From: a virus
Length of the DNA stretch: 30,079 nt
Direction: 5' to 3' (one strand)
Virus record (IMG/VR): IMGVR_UViG_3300028025_002687
Span: 1-30,079 of that record
The first letter of the stretch is position 1. Each line of letters opens with the position of its first letter. Positions 127 through 30,079 of this stretch are shown here, piece after piece. The translations under genes and the position numbers were made by a program. The notes under the pieces were generated by a model that was not told the DNA's origin, searched no databases, and saw nothing but the letters and a program-made list of their open reading frames with translations.

Positions 127-129
127 CAT
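1..129 (-). CDS. DUF3987-like P-loop replication protein, N-terminal 43 codons (continues at 29936)
   Basis: This is the true 5' end of the gene annotated at 28647-30062. The ATG at 129-127 overlaps the TGA of the upstream gene as ATGA, a translational-coupling arrangement. The first 43 codons (MKKEYLSEIEPTLESIHKHL and onward) reach exactly to base 1. Because base 1 equals base 29937, the frame continues without interruption into codon MNG at 29936. The joined protein is 472 residues. The start is supported by the overlap with the 141-residue gene before it. The other copy at the right end of the contig lacks this ATG because the sequence there diverges after the T6 tract. Confidence 0.85.
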   Translation of the reverse strand, partial: MKKEYLSEIEPTLESIHKHLTLHEVDCSFFGPSIHEAIKATSR

Positions 130-2426: not shown

Positions 2427-2708
2427 TTAGAAGTGACTGCACATTTCTTCGAAACTTTCGTTTTCGATAAGCTTATTAATTTCGTAGGTTGCAATCATTT
2501 CTGCAATCTCTGGATCAGTTTGATCTGCTTGAAAGAAAACTGTTGGATAGTTAATAGCTTCCCAAGGCATAAAAATGCAGCAGGGTTTTGCAGAAACTCT
2601 TTCTAAAGTAATACCTTTGTTAGAAACAGCTTTCACGAAGGAGATCTTCTTTAGAGATTTAGTTACTTGAACGTAGTCGCCGGGTTTGAAAAATTCTTGC
2701 TTTGTCAT
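2427..2708 (-). CDS. Small SH3-like hypothetical protein, 93 aa
   Basis: The N-terminus (FKPGDYVQVTKSLKKISFVK, then ITLERV) has the look of a small beta-barrel and resembles the GDxV segments of the neighbouring 232-aa protein, so the two may be related by duplication. The C-terminal half is predicted helical and acidic (DPEIAEMIATYEINKLIENE). No enzyme motif is visible. The start is the ATG at 2708, five bases after a copy of the conserved box, with no Shine-Dalgarno. It sits in the accessory cassette between other short unknown genes; a host-takeover role would be a guess. Confidence 0.7.
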   Translation of the reverse strand: MTKQEFFKPGDYVQVTKSLKKISFVKAVSNKGITLERVSAKPCCIFMPWEAINYPTVFFQADQTDPEIAEMIATYEINKLIENESFEEMCSHF

Positions 2709-2713
2709 ATGTT

Positions 2714-2729
2714 AGAATATACGGTCTTA
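2714..2729 (-). promoter_or_regulatory. Repeated box TAAGACCGTATATTCT, copy 3
   Basis: This exact copy lies five nt upstream of the 93-aa gene's ATG and overlaps the TAA of the 77-aa gene. Confidence 0.7.
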
Positions 2730-2960
2730 CTTAGAAAGTTTAGCAATAATTTGATCGATAGTCATGCCAGTTGGTTCCCAACCTGCAATGTAACGGACTC
2801 CTCCGTTTCCAACTTGAACAAGAAATAATCCTCCTTTGTCGTCTTTTGTCTTGAAAGGATTTTGATACAACCAAACTCCAGGTTCTGCATTACCTAAAAA
2901 AGTAAAAACTGAATCGAATTTGTTAAGGGTCTCTTCTGTGAATCTAAATGTGTTTGTCAT
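2727..2960 (-). CDS. Small hypothetical protein, 77 aa
   Basis: The ATG at 2960 (MTNTFRFTEETLNKFDSVF) is preferred. A longer version starting at 3035 would run back through the conserved box and the end of the upstream HNH-like gene. The protein is a compact alpha/beta type with central GVWLYQNPFK and GGLFLVQVGNGGVRYIAGW strands and a helical end (TIDQIIAKLSK). No family is recognised. The ATG follows a partial copy of the 16-bp box by three bases, so very little leader is available and initiation does not rely on a Shine-Dalgarno. Confidence 0.65.
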   Translation of the reverse strand: MTNTFRFTEETLNKFDSVFTFLGNAEPGVWLYQNPFKTKDDKGGLFLVQVGNGGVRYIAGWEPTGMTIDQIIAKLSK

Positions 2961-2963
2961 ACA

Positions 2964-2979
2964 AGAATATACGCTCTCT
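2964..2979 (-). promoter_or_regulatory. Repeated box, degenerate copy 4 (AGAGCGTATATTCT core)
   Basis: The core AGAGCGTATATTCT matches the other three copies at AGAnCGTATATTCT. It lies three nt before the ATG of the 77-aa gene and overlaps the stop of the HNH-like gene. A small CTCTC/GAGAG inverted repeat adjoins it. Confidence 0.55.
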
Positions 2980-3691
2980 ATCGAGAGAGACCGCGATCCT
3001 TGACAACTTTTTTTACCCGCTGGTTTGTGGTCCAACCCATGACTTTGATGATTGCATACATGGTCATTCCATCTTTATACATTCTCTCAACTTCATCTGC
3101 TTGTTCTGGAGTTGTCCTGATACGGGTTCCGGCCAATCTGGTATACTTCTTTTCGGGGCCATCTAATTTTTGACGTGCAGCCATTAGCCAGTTAGGCAAT
3201 AAGAGAAAGGCATAAAGTTCATCTTTGCTCATCCCCATCTTCTCCATACGGACTTCTAACTTCATCAGATGATCAACGGATGCTTTAATAAATTTTCTTC
3301 TTGTTTCCTGGTAGATTGCCCATTCCTTTCGGGGAAGATCCGTTACGACTTTCATGTTGTCGAACCTCAGATCTAAGGGATTTCCGTTGACGTAAAGGAA
3401 ATGGGGACTGACAACTATTCTTCCCATGTAGCACTCCCAGATAACCCTTTGTTTGGTGCCTAAAGTTACTCGGGGGGTTGTTGCTGTTTCTATTTTACGA
3501 ACAACAGAAAATCCTGATTTTTCGTAGAATGTGTAGATGTTTTCGTCGAAATACAGAATACCAATCTGATTGCACTTGATTGCGTGCACTGGGTGTTGAA
3601 AGAAAACCTCTTCTTCGTGGTCCTCCAACTGGGGAAACTTAGCCTGGAAGTAGTGTTTAGCTGGGTGAATTAACATACACGGGTCTCCCAT
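2978..3691 (-). CDS. Degenerate HNH-type protein with C-terminal helix-turn-helix, 237 aa
   Basis: The middle (VIWECYMGRIVVSPHF, then YVNGNPLDLRFDNM) aligns by eye with phage HNH homing endonucleases, which read roughly VxHxNGNPxDNRxxNL. The metal-binding histidine expected before NGN is replaced (LYVNGN), so nuclease activity is doubtful. The C-terminal 45 residues (TTPEQADEVERMYKDGMTMY and onward) resemble a resolvase-type helix-turn-helix. The likely role is DNA binding, perhaps regulation of this cassette, from a domesticated homing endonuclease. The start could be the ATG at 3691 or at 3676. Both overlap or adjoin the end of the 61-aa HTH gene, so the two genes are coupled. Confidence 0.7.
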   Translation of the reverse strand: MGDPCMLIHPAKHYFQAKFPQLEDHEEEVFFQHPVHAIKCNQIGILYFDENIYTFYEKSGFSVVRKIETATTPRVTLGTKQRVIWECYMGRIVVSPHFLYVNGNPLDLRFDNMKVVTDLPRKEWAIYQETRRKFIKASVDHLMKLEVRMEKMGMSKDELYAFLLLPNWLMAARQKLDGPEKKYTRLAGTRIRTTPEQADEVERMYKDGMTMYAIIKVMGWTTNQRVKKVVKDRGLSR

Positions 3692-3855
3692 CTGATAATG
3701 CGTCCGATGTGAGTTTTGGAAACTCCTGCTTCTTCTGCCAGATGCTGATGGGTGTAACCTCCCTTTGCATATAGAAATCTAATGCATCTCACCTCGAAGT
3801 CGCTGAGCCTGCAGTTGCCGTTGTTTTCGTTTTTGAAATTTGCCCGAATTTTCAT
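3670..3855 (-). CDS. Small helix-turn-helix DNA-binding protein, 61 aa
   Basis: Residues 17-58 (LSDFEVRCIRFLYAKGGYTH followed by HLAEEAGVSKTHIGRII) form a clear helix-turn-helix of the kind found at the end of HNH homing endonucleases and in small phage regulators. There is no other domain. It is the first gene of the accessory cassette, overlaps the next gene, and lies directly downstream of a TATAAT-containing promoter-like stretch. It is therefore the best candidate for the factor that reads the four conserved boxes. An alternative is that this gene and the next are two pieces of one former HNH-HTH endonuclease. Confidence 0.75.
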   Translation of the reverse strand: MKIRANFKNENNGNCRLSDFEVRCIRFLYAKGGYTHQHLAEEAGVSKTHIGRIIRWETRVC

Positions 3856-3856
3856 A

Positions 3857-3876
3857 CTCTATATATTATAGTTTAA
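3857..3876 (-). promoter_or_regulatory. Promoter-like TATAAT stretch before the HTH gene
   Basis: On the minus strand AAACTATAATATATAGAGT precedes the ATG at 3855. It follows the terminator at 3882-3921, so the accessory cassette probably restarts transcription here. No clear -35 partner is seen. Confidence 0.5.
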
Positions 3877-3881
3877 CCCAC

Positions 3882-3921
3882 AAAAAAAGTCCCCAGAAGT
3901 TATGAGAAACTGGGGACTTTT
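3882..3921 (-). terminator. Strong terminator at the end of the structural operon
   Basis: The perfect 12-bp stem AAAAGTCCCCAG/CTGGGGACTTTT has a 13-nt loop and is followed on the minus strand by a T7 run. It separates the structural gene run from the accessory cassette. Confidence 0.9.
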
Positions 3922-3933
3922 AGATATGAAATT

Positions 3934-4016
3934 AGAAGGATGGGGAATTAAAAAATAAATACCAAATAAAATAATAAAATGTAGAATACCAACGGGTGTT
4001 AGTGTCCCATCCTTCT
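3934..4016 (-). repeat. 11-bp inverted repeat enclosing an A/T-rich loop
   Basis: AGAAGGATGGG (3934-3944) and its exact reverse complement (4006-4016) are 61 nt apart in the transcribed 3' region after the last structural ORF. No gene lies between. It may shield the 3' end of the structural transcript or bring the terminator into a compact structure. Confidence 0.6.
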
Positions 4017-4022
4017 GTTATA

Positions 4023-4139
4023 TTATATCTTCTTATCTGCAGAAAGTTTCTCTTTTGCAAAGAGATATTTCTTGAGCTTAGCCTCATTGGCCTCGGAAGA
4101 TTTATACACCTTGGCCAGTCTAACCTTAGGATCTTGCAT
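4023..4139 (-). CDS. Small charged ORF, 38 aa, after the connector gene
   Basis: The ATG lies one base after the TAA of the DUF6712-like gene (TAACATG). The frame encodes MQDPKVRLAKVYKSSEANEA followed by KLKKYLFAKEKLSADKKI: a lysine-rich, probably helical peptide without cysteines or membrane segments. The tight spacing matches the coupling used throughout this genome, which argues for translation. It is short, its codon evidence is weak and no family is recognised. It is the last ORF before the operon terminator. Confidence 0.5.
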   Translation of the reverse strand: MQDPKVRLAKVYKSSEANEAKLKKYLFAKEKLSADKKI

Positions 4140-4140
4140 G

Positions 4141-4782
4141 TTAGTTTACCGGAGATTGGTAGAAGTTAGGTCCGCATTCCATGCACTGCATACCGTTATC
4201 ATACCAGCCCACATTTGCAGCATCTCTGGAGGTGTAGCCTCCAAGCTTGCGCCAAGCGTATGGTTGTTTCGGAGTAACCAAAGAGTTGTAGTAAGGATTG
4301 CCTCTTTCTGGTAGCTGTCCGTCCAATACGTTTGGTGTGATGTATGCTGGATAATCCCCAGGATGAAGGGTCATCCATTCGATCATGCGCTTCGTGTAGG
4401 TTTCTGCTGTTCCTCTGCACTGTTCGATGAGGAAGTTTAACTCTTCGAGGGTGATGGATTCTGCAGATTCTGAAGACGGGGAAAGCACCGACTTGTTGAA
4501 CACCTTATATTTCAACCAAGGTAAAGCTTGCATCAGCGCCCAGTTGCAAAGAGCCGATCCAATATAGTTGTCCAGGAGAAATCTATTTTCAACGCTTACT
4601 GTGTTTGTTAGAACTTGCTCTTTCAACTGCATGTAGTAGGTTGCTCCGATGTAGTTTTGAAGGTAGATGTCCTGCGATTGTAGCACGTAGGGAATCAAGT
4701 CCAACGGTGAAACGTTGTTGTTGATGGAGGTGAATGACTTGAGCTTCTCCTCAGAAACGAATAAAACTTCTTGTAGTGCCAT
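4141..4782 (-). CDS. DUF6712-like head-tail connector protein, 213 aa
   Basis: The N-terminus (LFVSEEKLKSFTSINNNVSP, then a helical stretch containing QSQDIYLQNYIGATYYMQL) fits the DUF6712 proteins of Bacteroidota phages, which behave like head-completion or adaptor proteins next to the portal. The C-terminal part carries PYAWRKLGGY and a CMEC pair in MQCMECGPN. Three bases separate it from the portal stop, consistent with a head-tail junction role. By family logic it would sit between portal ring and tail. The assignment is by motif reading; the exact adaptor role is inferred. Confidence 0.7.
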   Translation of the reverse strand: MALQEVLFVSEEKLKSFTSINNNVSPLDLIPYVLQSQDIYLQNYIGATYYMQLKEQVLTNTVSVENRFLLDNYIGSALCNWALMQALPWLKYKVFNKSVLSPSSESAESITLEELNFLIEQCRGTAETYTKRMIEWMTLHPGDYPAYITPNVLDGQLPERGNPYYNSLVTPKQPYAWRKLGGYTSRDAANVGWYDNGMQCMECGPNFYQSPVN

Positions 4783-5960: not shown

Positions 5961-5987
5961 TAAGTATAAATTTAAGAGAAACTGACA
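5961..5987 (-). promoter_or_regulatory. Late-promoter-like element TTGTCA-N14-TATACTTA before portal
   Basis: On the minus strand TGTCA (5987-5983), a 14-nt spacer and TATACTTA (5968-5961) precede the portal ATG by six bases. The same arrangement recurs upstream of three other genes, with a weaker fifth case. The predicted transcript would start at or near the ATG. Confidence 0.6.
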
Positions 5988-12058: not shown

Positions 12059-12085
12059 TAAGTATAGAATTAATCTAAACTGACA
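12059..12085 (-). promoter_or_regulatory. Late-promoter-like element TGTCA-N14-TATACTTA before fibre module
   Basis: TGTCA (12085-12081), a 14-nt spacer and TATACTTA (12066-12059) lie eight bases before the ATG of the 187-aa gene. The nine-base string TGTCAGTTT is shared with the portal copy at identical spacing. Confidence 0.65.
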
Positions 12086-14363: not shown

Positions 14364-14390
14364 TAAGTATAGACTAAATGTCATATGACA
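14364..14390 (-). promoter_or_regulatory. Late-promoter-like element before scaffold/capsid genes
   Basis: TGTCA (14390-14386), a 14-nt spacer and TATACTTA (14371-14364), with the same spacing as the portal and fibre copies. Here TGTCA is the left part of a perfect palindrome. The next start codon is 33 nt downstream. Confidence 0.65.
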
Positions 14391-27015: not shown

Positions 27016-27227
27016 AATACGTCTTCGGGGTTTATATCGTAGGACGGGAGCACTATGCCCGACTGTCCTGTTATTCTTACAGCCTCAGGGGTAACGTTTC
27101 TCACGTGAGCCATAGATTCCTGTAGTTCTTGAATCAGTCCATCGATCTTTTTACGCTTAGCAACTTTTGCAGCGTTGCGAGCCTGAACTTTCTTCTTGTG
27201 GTTTTTTCTTGTTTTAGATACTGGCAT
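27012..27227 (-). CDS. Small basic protein, 71 aa
   Basis: The start is strongly basic (MPVSKTRKNHKKKVQARNAA), suggesting nucleic-acid binding or a disordered tail. A short helix (IDGLIQELQESMAHV) and a loose end (DINPEDVL) follow. No fold is recognised. TAATG overlap with the sigma-like gene upstream and ATGA overlap with the acidic gene downstream place it firmly in the early operon. A host-directed or RNA-binding role is speculation. Confidence 0.75.
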   Translation of the reverse strand: MPVSKTRKNHKKKVQARNAAKVAKRKKIDGLIQELQESMAHVRNVTPEAVRITGQSGIVLPSYDINPEDVL

Positions 27228-27706
27228 TAGATGTTCTTTTTTAGGTATCGCCTTACTCTATTAATGGTTAGAGACACAGAAGTCCTTGGGATGCCAACAG
27301 AGCGAGCCAAGGAAGAAATGGTGTGTCCCTCATCGACAAAAGTTTCGAACAGTTTACGATCATACCAGGGGAGTGAGGCCAAGAGGGTCTTCGCTCTTGC
27401 AGCCAACTCTTCTGTTGGATCTTCTTCTTCGACAGCTTCGTGTGCTTCATGTAGAGGAAAGGGGTTATTTCTATAGGTATGGTAAAACGGAGAAGTGACT
27501 GACTTCCAGGAGTTAGTCATAATCTTTATACAGAACCAGCGTCCTGCTCCACAGTCTAAGACTTCTTCCATCTTGGGATTTGCCAAGAATGCGTCTAAGG
27601 TGTAGTGCAGTAGCTCCTCCGCTAAGTCAGAGTTGCCAGATATTCTAATCGAAGCCTCTTTGAGCGGAAGGTAGTGGTCGTGCATGAACTGTTCCGTCTT
27701 AGTCAA
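27227..27706 (-). CDS. Sigma-factor-like (ECF-type) protein, 159 aa, TTG start
   Basis: The N-terminal region resembles sigma region 2 (ISGNSDLAEELLHYTLDAFL). The C-terminal region resembles region 4 with a helix-turn-helix (LLASLPWYDRKLFETFVDEG, HTISSLARSVGIPRTSVSLT, ending NRVRRYLKKNI). Between them is an acidic linker (EAHEAVEEEDPTEELAARAK). The frame opens with TTG at 27706, eight bases after the preceding stop; an ATG at 27685 is the alternative. A phage-encoded sigma factor could direct RNA polymerase to the TGTCA-N14-TATACTTA late elements, an attractive but untested link. Region 2 is short, so it may be an incomplete or antagonist form. Confidence 0.65.
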   Translation of the reverse strand: MTKTEQFMHDHYLPLKEASIRISGNSDLAEELLHYTLDAFLANPKMEEVLDCGAGRWFCIKIMTNSWKSVTSPFYHTYRNNPFPLHEAHEAVEEEDPTEELAARAKTLLASLPWYDRKLFETFVDEGHTISSLARSVGIPRTSVSLTINRVRRYLKKNI

Positions 27707-27714
27707 ATTAAAGG

Positions 27715-28041
27715 TTATACGTCAACGTCAACGTCGAAGACGTCCGTTATGTCCCCGTAGCACGGGTCTTTCTCACCAGGAATGTTGATGGACATACAGC
27801 CATTAGAATGAGTTGTAATCCAACCTCTTCCTTCCAGCATTTGAATTAGCTGGTGGGTGAAAGGAATATCCCAACCGAAGTTGGTTGCAATCCAAGATAC
27901 AGGAGCAAAGCATCCCTTTTGCATGCGGGTGAAACCCCAGATGAACGAAAGCATAATCTTCTCCCTATCGTTTAACGAAGTGTCCTGCCAGATGATAGGA
28001 TCAACAACCATGTAGGAAGGGTCTTTTGAATTAGTGGACAT
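27715..28041 (-). CDS. Winged-helix replication-initiator-like protein, 108 aa
   Basis: The segment DPIIWQDTSLNDREKIMLSF followed by TRMQKGCFAPVSWIATNFGW and LIQMLEGRGWITTH matches the helix-turn-helix (HTH_36-like) domain at the front of phage replication initiators. The product is only this domain plus a short acidic tail ending DITDVFDVDVDV. The tail is coded by an iterated ACGTCA sequence (27719-27735). Initiators often carry such domains to bind origin iterons, so this protein may act on the inverted repeat at 28514-28631 just upstream. It overlaps the 76-aa gene by 11 bp. Confidence 0.65.
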   Translation of the reverse strand: MSTNSKDPSYMVVDPIIWQDTSLNDREKIMLSFIWGFTRMQKGCFAPVSWIATNFGWDIPFTHQLIQMLEGRGWITTHSNGCMSINIPGEKDPCYGDITDVFDVDVDV

Positions 28042-28261
28042 AGCTTGCTCCTTCTATTGTGTTGACTAATTCTTCTAAGGTGCAGATTGTGATAATCTGT
28101 CTCTGCTTAGATCTTGGTTCGAACAGATGTAAACAAATTCTGCCAGAAGCAGAAATGGTTAAGTTCTCGATTAGTTGTTCCGAGTTGTCCTTAAGACGGA
28201 CGTAGTTGCCATCAGGTCTAAATGTTCTCGGGTCGTTTGCTTTTTCAATACGAAATGCCAT
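28031..28261 (-). CDS. Small hypothetical protein, 76 aa
   Basis: The sequence begins MAFRIEKANDPRTFRPDGNY and has VRLKDNSEQLIENL, SGRICLHLFEPRSKQR and ITICTLEELVNTIEGASYV segments. It looks like a compact beta-strand protein with a C-terminal helix. No family is recognised. It lies between the 69-aa and winged-helix genes, one base after the previous stop and overlapping the next gene by 11 bp, typical of this dense early operon. Confidence 0.7.
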   Translation of the reverse strand: MAFRIEKANDPRTFRPDGNYVRLKDNSEQLIENLTISASGRICLHLFEPRSKQRQIITICTLEELVNTIEGASYVH

Positions 28262-28262
28262 C

Positions 28263-28472
28263 TTAATTTTCCTCTCTTGTTATAGTTAATCTGTCTCTGT
28301 TTGTTCCTTCGAGGATAACATCGTCGAAGTGTCCCATGTTGACGTTCATCCATACACCTCTTTCTTCATGATAGAATTTAGCCATGAGATAACCTAAATC
28401 GGAAATGTAGGTTTTATCTAATGACCAGATGCCTTCATAACCATCAATCGTGTAAGTTAATTTATTTTCCAT
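28263..28472 (-). CDS. Small hypothetical protein, first gene of the early operon, 69 aa
   Basis: The sequence is MENKLTYTIDGYEGIWSLDK, then TYISDLGYLMAKFYHEERG and VWMNVNMGHFDDVIL, ending in a charged RLTITREEN. It is a small, mixed alpha/beta type without known motifs. It is the first gene after the large inverted repeat, and its leader on the minus strand is very A/T-rich with a TATATACAAT-like stretch directly before the ATG, so transcription of the early/middle genes probably begins here. Confidence 0.7.
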   Translation of the reverse strand: MENKLTYTIDGYEGIWSLDKTYISDLGYLMAKFYHEERGVWMNVNMGHFDDVILEGTNRDRLTITREEN

Positions 28473-28500
28473 ATTGTATATATCTTTTTTATTTTTGTAA
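28473..28500 (-). promoter_or_regulatory. A/T-rich promoter-like leader of the early operon
   Basis: On the minus strand a TTTTTTAC stretch and an A-rich spacer precede TATATACAAT, which adjoins the ATG at 28472. It is the first possible promoter after the inverted repeat, but its match to any consensus is loose. Confidence 0.4.
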
Positions 28501-28513
28501 AAAACTGAAAAGT

Positions 28514-28631
28514 GTCACTGTCACTGTCACATAGGGGGAGCCCATAGGGTATATTATATAATAAAAAGATAAATCACTCGTTTTCTCTATATAGGTATAT
28601 GGGCTCCCCTATGTGACACTGTGACAGTGAC
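28514..28631. repeat. Large inverted repeat with TGTCAC iterations; origin or terminator candidate
   Basis: Left arm 28514-28546 and right arm 28598-28631 pair over about 33 bp, apart from a 2-base insertion and one G. Three tandem TGTCAC hexamers lie at 28513-28530, and three GTGACA copies lie in the right arm. The 51-bp loop is almost purely A/T. The element fills the only sizeable gap between the DUF3987 gene and the early operon. An origin with initiator iterons and an unwinding element is one reading; a long terminator hairpin is the other. Confidence 0.75.
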
Positions 28632-28646
28632 AAAGTTCATTTTTAC

Positions 28647-30062
28647 TTATTTTTTAGCAGGTTTCAGTAACGTAGTGTCACTTGACATGAATCTTAAGAA
28701 CCTCTTTTTAGCTGTTCTGTTGGGAAATTGGAATCCTTCAATAGCATTTTGCCATGAAGCAAGATCAAAATTTCCTCCTCTTTCTTCAAGAATTGTTACA
28801 AGTTTATTGTAAATTATTGTGGCTTGAGTTGGCTTCGTGACACTATGTTGCTTTAATTCTTTCTCGTCCACAGGAGGAACATCCAGTTGAATCATAGACA
28901 TCCAGCCAGTCCATACCTTTCTTGCCATCTGCCATCCAAAGTCTAATGCGTCCTTGTCAACCCGATTTAATGAAGGTGAACCTGGAATCTGGTATGGATC
29001 TAAATTCTGACTTACGATAGAATGGATGAGTGCACACTTGTCGATGATTGCTGGAAGCTTAAACAGCATAGTCGACATCAAAGGATTGTCGATAGAATTT
29101 GCAACCCATCTAATTTTATCCCAGATGTGAGTCTTGACTTCTAAAGCCTCTTTGGTGTAAGTGTAAGACCAGATGTCTCCTCTTTCAAAGTGAATCTTTG
29201 CTATGGACTTGAACAGTGCGTCGAATGCAGAAAAATCCGGAGGAGTAGTTCTGTTGGATGCTAAGAATTCATCAAAAGAAAGAGTTGTTGGTTCAGGGGT
29301 ATCGATGTTGATCCAGAATCTCCATGAACTTCCATCCGATCTCATCTTTTCAGAAATAAGATTCATTCCAAGAGTTGGAGTTCCATGGGCGTAAACACTA
29401 ACAGAAGAATCATCGATGCTTGCAGAACCTCTGCCGATTAGAACCTTTTTGATGCTGTGAGTTTGGTAGAGTTCTGTTAGATCTGTGATTGCATGATTTG
29501 TGCCCAAGAAGTTCGACACAAAGGTAAACAACTCATCGTAGAATAACAACATAGCTCCGTTGCCAGCATAGTGAAACATACTTTCTGGAGTTGCCTTAGA
29601 AATAATGGCGTTATGTTCTCTTAATCTAATTCTTGTAAGTTCGTTCTGCTTCTCTGTGGAGTTAACGATTGGACCATTCCTGTCGATAACAACAGCTTCT
29701 TGTTGTTGGAGATTTCTATCTCTCAGCATCTTGTCCAGAGGCTTCAAGGTGTTCTTCAACAACATGGACGTTATTGTGGATTTTGAACCTCCTGAGTTTA
29801 GCAGATTGATTGCATAGATGTTTGGTTTGGTTTCGAATGGATGAGTTCCTGCATTGATGTAGGTGTTCATCCCACAAGCAGTTCCCAGAATTGGCAGCAT
29901 AATAAACAGCACAGTTTCCTGAGTTACCCCATTCATTCTTGAAGTTGCTTTGATCGCTTCGTGGATTGAAGGACCAAAGAAAGAGCAGTCCACCTCATGC
30001 AGAGTTAGGTGCTTGTGGATGGATTCTAAAGTTGGTTCGATTTCTGATAGATATTCTTTTTT
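28647..30062 (-). CDS. DUF3987-like P-loop replication protein (main part; N-terminus at 1-129)
   Basis: In the full 472-residue numbering a P-loop-like NSGGSKST lies at about 90-97 and a Walker B-like LLFYDE at about 173-178. The general layout matches DUF3987 proteins, helicase/primase-associated P-loop ATPases of phages and mobile elements. The P-loop departs from the GxxxxGKS form, having SGGSKS, as DUF3987 members often do. The region after it (NLISEKMRSDGSSWRFWINI) fits the ATPase core. The true start is the ATG at 129 on the other contig end; within this copy the frame is open to 30079 but lacks the start because the sequence switches after T6. The gene probably runs the phage's DNA replication together with the nearby inverted repeat. 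Confidence 0.8.
   Translation of the reverse strand, partial: KKEYLSEIEPTLESIHKHLTLHEVDCSFFGPSIHEAIKATSRMNGVTQETVLFIMLPILGTACGMNTYINAGTHPFETKPNIYAINLLNSGGSKSTITSMLLKNTLKPLDKMLRDRNLQQQEAVVIDRNGPIVNSTEKQNELTRIRLREHNAIISKATPESMFHYAGNGAMLLFYDELFTFVSNFLGTNHAITDLTELYQTHSIKKVLIGRGSASIDDSSVSVYAHGTPTLGMNLISEKMRSDGSSWRFWINIDTPEPTTLSFDEFLASNRTTPPDFSAFDALFKSIAKIHFERGDIWSYTYTKEALEVKTHIWDKIRWVANSIDNPLMSTMLFKLPAIIDKCALIHSIVSQNLDPYQIPGSPSLNRVDKDALDFGWQMARKVWTGWMSMIQLDVPPVDEKELKQHSVTKPTQATIIYNKLVTILEERGGNFDLASWQNAIEGFQFPNRTAKKRFLRFMSSDTTLLKPAKK
29937..30062. repeat. Direct repeat of the contig start (right copy)
   Basis: Identical to 1-126. The bases after it (30063-30079) do not continue the repeat but copy 476-492 in inverted orientation. 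Confidence 0.95.
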
Positions 30063-30079
30063 AGAATGGGAAGCTAATC
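30057..30079 (-). repeat. Inverted copy of 476-498 at the contig end
   Basis: This is a perfect 23-bp reverse-complement match to 476-498. The switch point is the T6/A6 homopolymer shared by both sites, typical of a template-switch chimera or of an inverted variant of segment 127-492. Confidence 0.9.

Follow-up and report, generated by a model that had tools for sequence, protein, structure and literature searches.

The window, by which we mean the whole 30,079-nt stretch of viral DNA analysed here, represents a phage whose closed, circular genome measures 29,936 bp. An exact 126-bp terminal repeat (1-126 and 29937-30062) closes the genome, and the last 24 nt of the record (30056-30079) copy 476-499 in inverted orientation; this artefact of the contig end cuts the DUF3987 gene short in the linear form. 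The best GenBank matches of the window terminase are from Nonlabens phages (34.6%), which makes a Bacteroidota host likely. Between the stop of the DUF3987 gene and the start of a 69-aa gene of the same direction lies a large inverted repeat of about 120 bp, centre included, whose nearest hexamer begins 15 nt behind the DUF3987 stop (Table 1).

The DUF3987 product matches PF13148 with an E-value of 9e-11 and 42 bits, against a curated cut-off of 27. Its last 97 residues have no Pfam match, and no DNA-binding domain was recognised in them; the C-terminal part aligns too weakly with other DUF3987 proteins to be of use, and structure prediction without an alignment gave no usable fold (pLDDT 34.5). 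A PDB sequence search returned chance matches only, close relatives of the protein were found in none of the viral contigs, genome contigs, phage collection or plasmids, and positions 28001-30079 showed no DNA similarity to GenBank phages. A Pfam scan covering 31 ORFs of the window, all but three in the tail region and some of the small ones, recognised no primase, polymerase or HUH endonuclease. A rolling-circle origin would call for an HUH-type Rep endonuclease, which was not recognised among these ORFs.

Table 1. Features of the window that bear on the inverted repeat and its surroundings
Feature	Position	Strand	Remarks
Late-promoter sites	5961-5987, 12059-12085, 14364-14390	-	TGTCA-N15-ATACTTA
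Conserved 69-aa gene	28263-28472	-	fixed landmark outside the cassette, not part of the origin
Cassette border, where homology resumes	28488-28498		G001, 28488; G004, 28495; G009, 28498; G012, 28498
Left arm	28513-28546	+	TGTCAC at 28513, 28519 and 28525; inner stem ATAGGGGGAGCCCATA
A/T-rich centre	28547-28597		51 nt, 76% A+T (23.5% G+C); presumed melting role
Right arm	28598-28632	-	GTGACA at 28613, 28621 and 28627 (spacings 8 and 6)
DUF3987 gene, presumed initiator helicase	28647-30062, across the circular join to ATG at 127-129	-	PF13148
Outlying TGTCAC	28676-28681	+	within the 3' end of the DUF3987 gene
Outlying GTGACA	28837-28842	-	within the DUF3987 gene

Architecture of the inverted repeat

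Each arm is 34-36 nt long and carries three TGTCAC hexamers; the arms contain two small bulges and flank a 51-nt centre. Inside the hexamers, both arms share a matching stem, ATAGGGG(G)AGCCCATA. The left arm has one extra G and the right arm two extra bases; as the arms are not identical, the structure is no simple assembly foldback. The first-pass annotation had described a near-perfect 33-bp inverted repeat around an A/T-only-like loop. Its position, the three TGTCAC and three inverted copies, and the extra copies at 28676 and 28837 were all confirmed, with arms slightly longer and bulged; the centre, roughly a quarter G+C, is not A/T-only. The two outlying copies form a further 16-nt inverted pair (28666-28681 and 28837-28852).

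All eight TGTCAC/GTGACA copies of the window are confined to 330 bp, whereas in 50 order-1 Markov shuffles hexamers limited to one 340-nt span never exceeded three copies. In an inverted-repeat scan that allowed gaps, the repeat scored 24, the highest value of the window (runner-up, 14), and the same scan on 20 shuffles of the window gave maxima of 11-17.

As RNA, the repeat folds at -69 kcal/mol (z -11.3). Given this high stability, its location between two genes of the same direction and the T-rich stretches on both of its flanks, it could be read as a hairpin in the leftward operon transcript that, at the boundary of the DUF3987 message and the genes downstream, terminates transcription, is cleaved by RNase III or protects the RNA. 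However, a loop of 51 nt is unlike those of intrinsic terminators, a terminator scan finds none here, and the Rfam matches all fall far below gathering scores. An RNA hairpin would also leave unexplained the tandem hexamers, the two outlying copies inside the gene, and, as described below, a TGTC core shared across phyla and the absence of the repeat in DnaB-type relatives. We regard this explanation as unlikely, although the repeat may have a side role in termination.

Exchange of the repeat together with the replication gene

Terminase relatives were collected from viral contigs, and the 12 closest of 48 loci were studied; the inverted-repeat scan covered these contigs except for the short G002, G007, G008 and G011. 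The DUF3987 protein of the window occurs in none of the 12, several of which are fragments. The contig G001, the closest relative, which matches the window at about 96% identity across the shared DNA, stops within the replication-gene region, G003 does not reach it, and no replication gene was found in G006. G001 also carries three extra genes between its DUF5681 and terminase genes (2562-4373) that are absent from the window, one of which resembles a DNA methylase by eye.

In each of the four relatives whose sequence spans the border (G001, G004, G009 and G012), homology sets in again 15-25 bp beyond the repeat, and the adjoining replication gene differs from that of the window, indicating that the repeat and the DUF3987 gene move together. 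The slot is occupied in G009 by a BT4734/DUF5906 protein of 775 aa, in G012 by a DUF5906 protein of 433 aa, and in G004 by a DnaB_C helicase and an HTH_36 protein, with similar proteins in G005. No viral relatives of the G009 and G012 helicases were found beyond their source contigs. Behind the G009 gene lie nine TGTTAC/GTAACA copies in about 340 bp and a long inverted repeat (score 19), and behind the G012 gene six TGTTTC/GAAACA copies and an inverted repeat whose centre measures 42 nt (score 17). The more distant G010, with a 745-aa DUF5906 protein, has behind the gene for it an inverted repeat with a centre of 36 nt (score 17) and no clear hexamer. A score of 17 by itself is borderline, since one of the 20 shuffles reached it, and it is the position that makes the G012 and G010 repeats noteworthy: in the window, G009, G012 and G010, the best inverted repeat of the contig lies directly behind the single large helicase gene (DUF3987 or the SF3-type DUF5906). 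The best inverted repeats of the five other scanned contigs score 11-14, as shuffles do, and in the DnaB-type G004 and G005 only about 30 nt, with no inverted repeat, separate the helicase gene from the 69-aa gene. The repeats thus accompany a single large helicase, and they are missing where DnaB is paired with a separate HTH protein.

These relatives bear on the proposal that the structure is a packaging site, a miniature transposable element or, after all, an assembly foldback. The terminase gene begins some 2.4 kb from the repeat, which would suit packaging, and the short inverted artefact at one contig end (30056-30079, copying 476-499) would suit a foldback. Yet the arms differ by bulges, the window genome holds no second full copy, the exact 22-nt core of the repeat has no match in the viral contigs, and the corresponding slot of the relatives holds the same layout with other sequences. 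A packaging site, moreover, would not be expected to follow the helicase family. Taken together, we consider these three explanations very improbable.

Candidate readers of the hexamers

The first-pass annotation proposed a candidate origin from the iterons, the A/T-rich segment and the adjoining P-loop replication gene, and as a candidate this reading is supported. It further suggested the 108-aa winged-helix protein as the reader of the iterons, and a single protein reading both the iterons and the late promoters; neither suggestion is supported by the comparison of relatives. Orthologues or positional homologues of the 108-aa protein also occur where the repeats differ or are lacking (G001, G012, G004, G005, G006 and G009), and because the protein is kept in place while the repeats are replaced or lost along with the helicase gene, it is not a likely reader. 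As a string, the TGTCA core is indeed present in the late promoters, at three window sites before structural genes, although the window holds 51 copies of TGTCA in all. The promoter motif stays constant while the iterons are TGTCAC, TGTTAC, TGTTTC or absent, and the iterons have no ATACTTA partner, so that a shared reader is unlikely. The likelier reader of the iterons is the predicted DUF3987 product itself.

The late-promoter-like motif, TGTCA(GTT)-N-ATACTTA with a length of exactly 27 nt, was found at 19 sites in eight of nine contigs, always on the coding strand and ending 4-35 nt before an ORF start; many are near enough to it that their messages may be leaderless. A 159-aa protein encoded at 27227-27706 on the minus strand and kept in the relatives matches sigma-70 region 4 below the threshold (E 0.001), making it a candidate phage sigma factor for these promoters.

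The repeats might instead form an operator that regulates the cassette or the downstream operon, with the DUF3987 or the 108-aa protein as its reader. Initiators often control their own genes, and just past the repeat, on the minus strand, there is a promoter-like TTTACA-17-TACAAT. Such promoter-like sites are no commoner than in shuffles (3 vs 2.4), however, the repeat is located behind rather than before the helicase gene, and relatives that lack these repeats also encode counterparts of the 108-aa protein. The A/T-rich centre and the mirror symmetry are better suited to an origin, and we consider an operator very unlikely.

A TGTC core behind DUF3987 genes of Bacillota

Searches with PF13148 in partly overlapping draws of 299, 391 and 398 Bacillota genomes yielded 30 loci. 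For the inverted-repeat count, L112 and L132, with no DNA behind the ORF, were left out; the 28 remaining rows include L105 and L106, which have an in-frame stop within the match and do not cover the true gene end, L110 and L124, which fall below the curated cut-off, and L123 and L127, which are one gene counted twice. A score of at least 14 within 400 nt behind the ORF was reached in 8 of the 28 rows (L107, 32; L111, 23; L109, 19; L125, 18; L114 and L119, 15; L113 and L131, 14), compared with 7 of 315 upstream windows, which are mostly coding and may therefore understate inverted repeats between genes. The other 20 rows have no strong inverted repeat.

Tetramers were counted at 23 loci, with the window excluded and L105, L106, L110, L112, L124, L127 and L132 left out. 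The most enriched tetramer in the first 300 nt behind these genes is GACA/TGTC, with 101 occurrences against 44.7 expected, and the excess is gone in the next 300 nt (41 vs 39.0 expected, 21 loci). The observed ratio of 2.26 compares with a ratio never above 1.42 in 500 resamples of upstream windows. Individually, eight loci show the excess at p <0.02, six of them with an inverted repeat too, and the other 15 show no significant excess; L109 and L125 have an inverted repeat without a TGTC excess, and many loci have neither. The TGTC copies are often arranged as inverted repeats around an A/T-rich core. At L119, TTTTTGTCACGTTGTC is followed by an A/T-rich centre and then by GACAGCTGTGACAACGTGACAAAA, the layout and hexamer being those of the window. 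A TGTC core is thus common to the window repeat and to repeats behind DUF3987 genes of unrelated bacteria.

DUF5906 genes served as a control, which covered 30 loci out of the DUF5906 places found in 249 Bacillota genomes. An inverted repeat scoring at least 14 was found behind the gene at 10 of the 30 loci, against 1 of 277 windows. The hexamers vary by locus (CGTCTA 13 times, GTAGCA 12, AGTGGC 9, CCGTTC 8), and no GACA excess was detected behind these genes (58 vs 49.3, p 0.12). Both helicase families therefore share the layout, and the TGTC core belongs with DUF3987. The loci L137, L139, L159 and L160, all from Bacillota, each carry a different hexamer in 8 to 13 copies within 400 nt behind a DUF5906 gene; these strong iteron clusters are likely origins of mobile elements.

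Among 11 GenBank phages with SF3-type proteins, a wide-loop repeat lies directly behind the gene in two, Halomonas phage H4907 (score 16) and Achromobacter phage ehaak_LB5 (score 14). The repeat of Donnerlittchen (score 14), with a 4-nt loop and 325 nt away, is terminator-like, and in the remaining eight no repeat reached 14. The viral contigs G022 (score 9) and G040 (score 13, 7-nt loop) have no comparable repeat. In BPP-1, a relative of BIP-1, for which a stem-loop behind the replication gene has been published, nothing rises above background within 400 nt (score 9), and a palindrome with an 8-nt loop (score 24) lies about 470 nt downstream of the replication gene. The H4907 and ehaak_LB5 repeats coincide with unannotated iteron clusters, CAGACA/GTCTGA behind position 3541 and CGACTA behind position 3640, respectively, and these clusters, directly behind SF3-type primase-helicase genes, are likely origins.

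Comparison with known replication systems

SaPI Rep and SCCmec Cch2 are described as self-loading initiator helicases whose iteron origin immediately follows the helicase gene (PMC7581432). The window likewise has its iterons directly behind a P-loop helicase-like gene, combines direct with inverted repeats and appears to use a single initiator. The helicases differ, being of the DUF927 or D5/Primase_Cterm types in these elements and DUF3987 in the window, as does the arrangement of the window hexamers in mirror-image arms with a TGTC core. Binding has been demonstrated for Rep and Cch2, whereas for the window it is proposed from sequence.

In pRN1, a stem-loop of about 100 bp (21-nt stem, 58-nt loop) located 3' of the orf904 primase/SF3 helicase gene is needed for replication; relatives keep this layout with low sequence likeness, and the authors find no iterons (PMC4234260). 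The window shares the large stem-loop directly behind a replication gene, but its iterons form the arms. The pRN1 protein joins an archaeo-eukaryotic primase to an SF3 helicase; because DUF3987 is the only domain recognised in the window protein, with no primase, we propose that the locus works like a pRN1-type replicon and do not class it as one.

The same paper describes the P4 alpha protein as a winged-helix-bearing helicase that binds origin repeats and then unwinds (PMC4234260). Phage P4 is the system to which we liken the proposed order of events in the window, although alpha also carries a Toprim primase. No large single hairpin behind the gene is known for the P4 origin repeats.

DUF3987 domains are reported to be fused to primases in mobile elements and are predicted to be replication helicases since they replace known helicases next to primases (PMC5862659). 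The window protein belongs to the same Pfam family but, unlike those proteins, has no recognised primase. In the available portions of PMC5862659, PMC10803314, PMC8004638 and PMC6893835, no origin is assigned to a DUF3987 protein. As far as these partial sources extend, the logic of a helicase with a downstream origin is known; what is new is a helicase family for which no origin is described, together with the shared TGTC core.

A candidate origin and its proposed operation

Our analyses make it probable that the inverted repeat is the replication origin of the phage, situated directly 3' of the gene for its own initiator, DUF3987. In its favour we count the confinement of all eight TGTCAC copies to 330 nt, the rank of the repeat as the top inverted repeat of the contig, its exchange together with the helicase gene, and the presence of repeats behind single-helicase genes, with none in the DnaB_C plus HTH_36 relatives G004 and G005. 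The inverted repeats and TGTC excess behind Bacillota DUF3987 genes point the same way, as do the precedents of SaPI Rep, SCCmec Cch2 and pRN1, in each of which the origin comes immediately after the helicase gene.

Against an origin we count the GC skew, which the first-pass annotation had offered as a check and which changes direction in the closed genome at places other than the repeat; since all genes run one way, the skew is weak evidence and the check proved uninformative. To this are added the 15 of 23 loci without a TGTC excess, the 20 of 28 rows without a strong repeat, the mostly coding comparison windows, and the wide-loop repeat in only 2 of 11 SF3-type GenBank phages. For the protein itself, the lack of a close DUF3987 relative, of a recognised C-terminal DNA-binding domain and of a usable predicted fold also weigh against it.

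We infer that the DUF3987 protein, a predicted ring-forming P-loop helicase, would bind the TGTCAC hexamers of both arms. As the arms are mirror images, we propose two oppositely oriented rings, which would assemble face to face, melt the A/T-rich centre and launch a fork in each direction. Polymerase and probably primase would come from the host.

Implications

A broader proposal has two parts, namely that DUF3987 proteins are self-loading initiators reading the TGTC core of mirror-image iteron origins, from phages to Bacillota elements, and that related phages swap whole initiator-plus-origin cassettes, with three unrelated helicase types (DUF3987, SF3-type, and DnaB plus HTH), at a fixed junction. 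Taken as a whole, we judge it evenly balanced between right and wrong. Similar TGTC-repeat hairpins lie behind a good share of the DUF3987 genes checked in bacteria. If the proposal is true, DUF3987, a domain of unknown function in mobile elements, would gain a job, and origins could be found by a simple rule, as TGTC repeats in inverted arms behind the DUF3987 stop. At a fixed junction, a phage clade would then swap initiator and origin together as a unit; this bears on the ways in which phages change replication systems, and such exchange would perhaps allow escape from competition or host interference.
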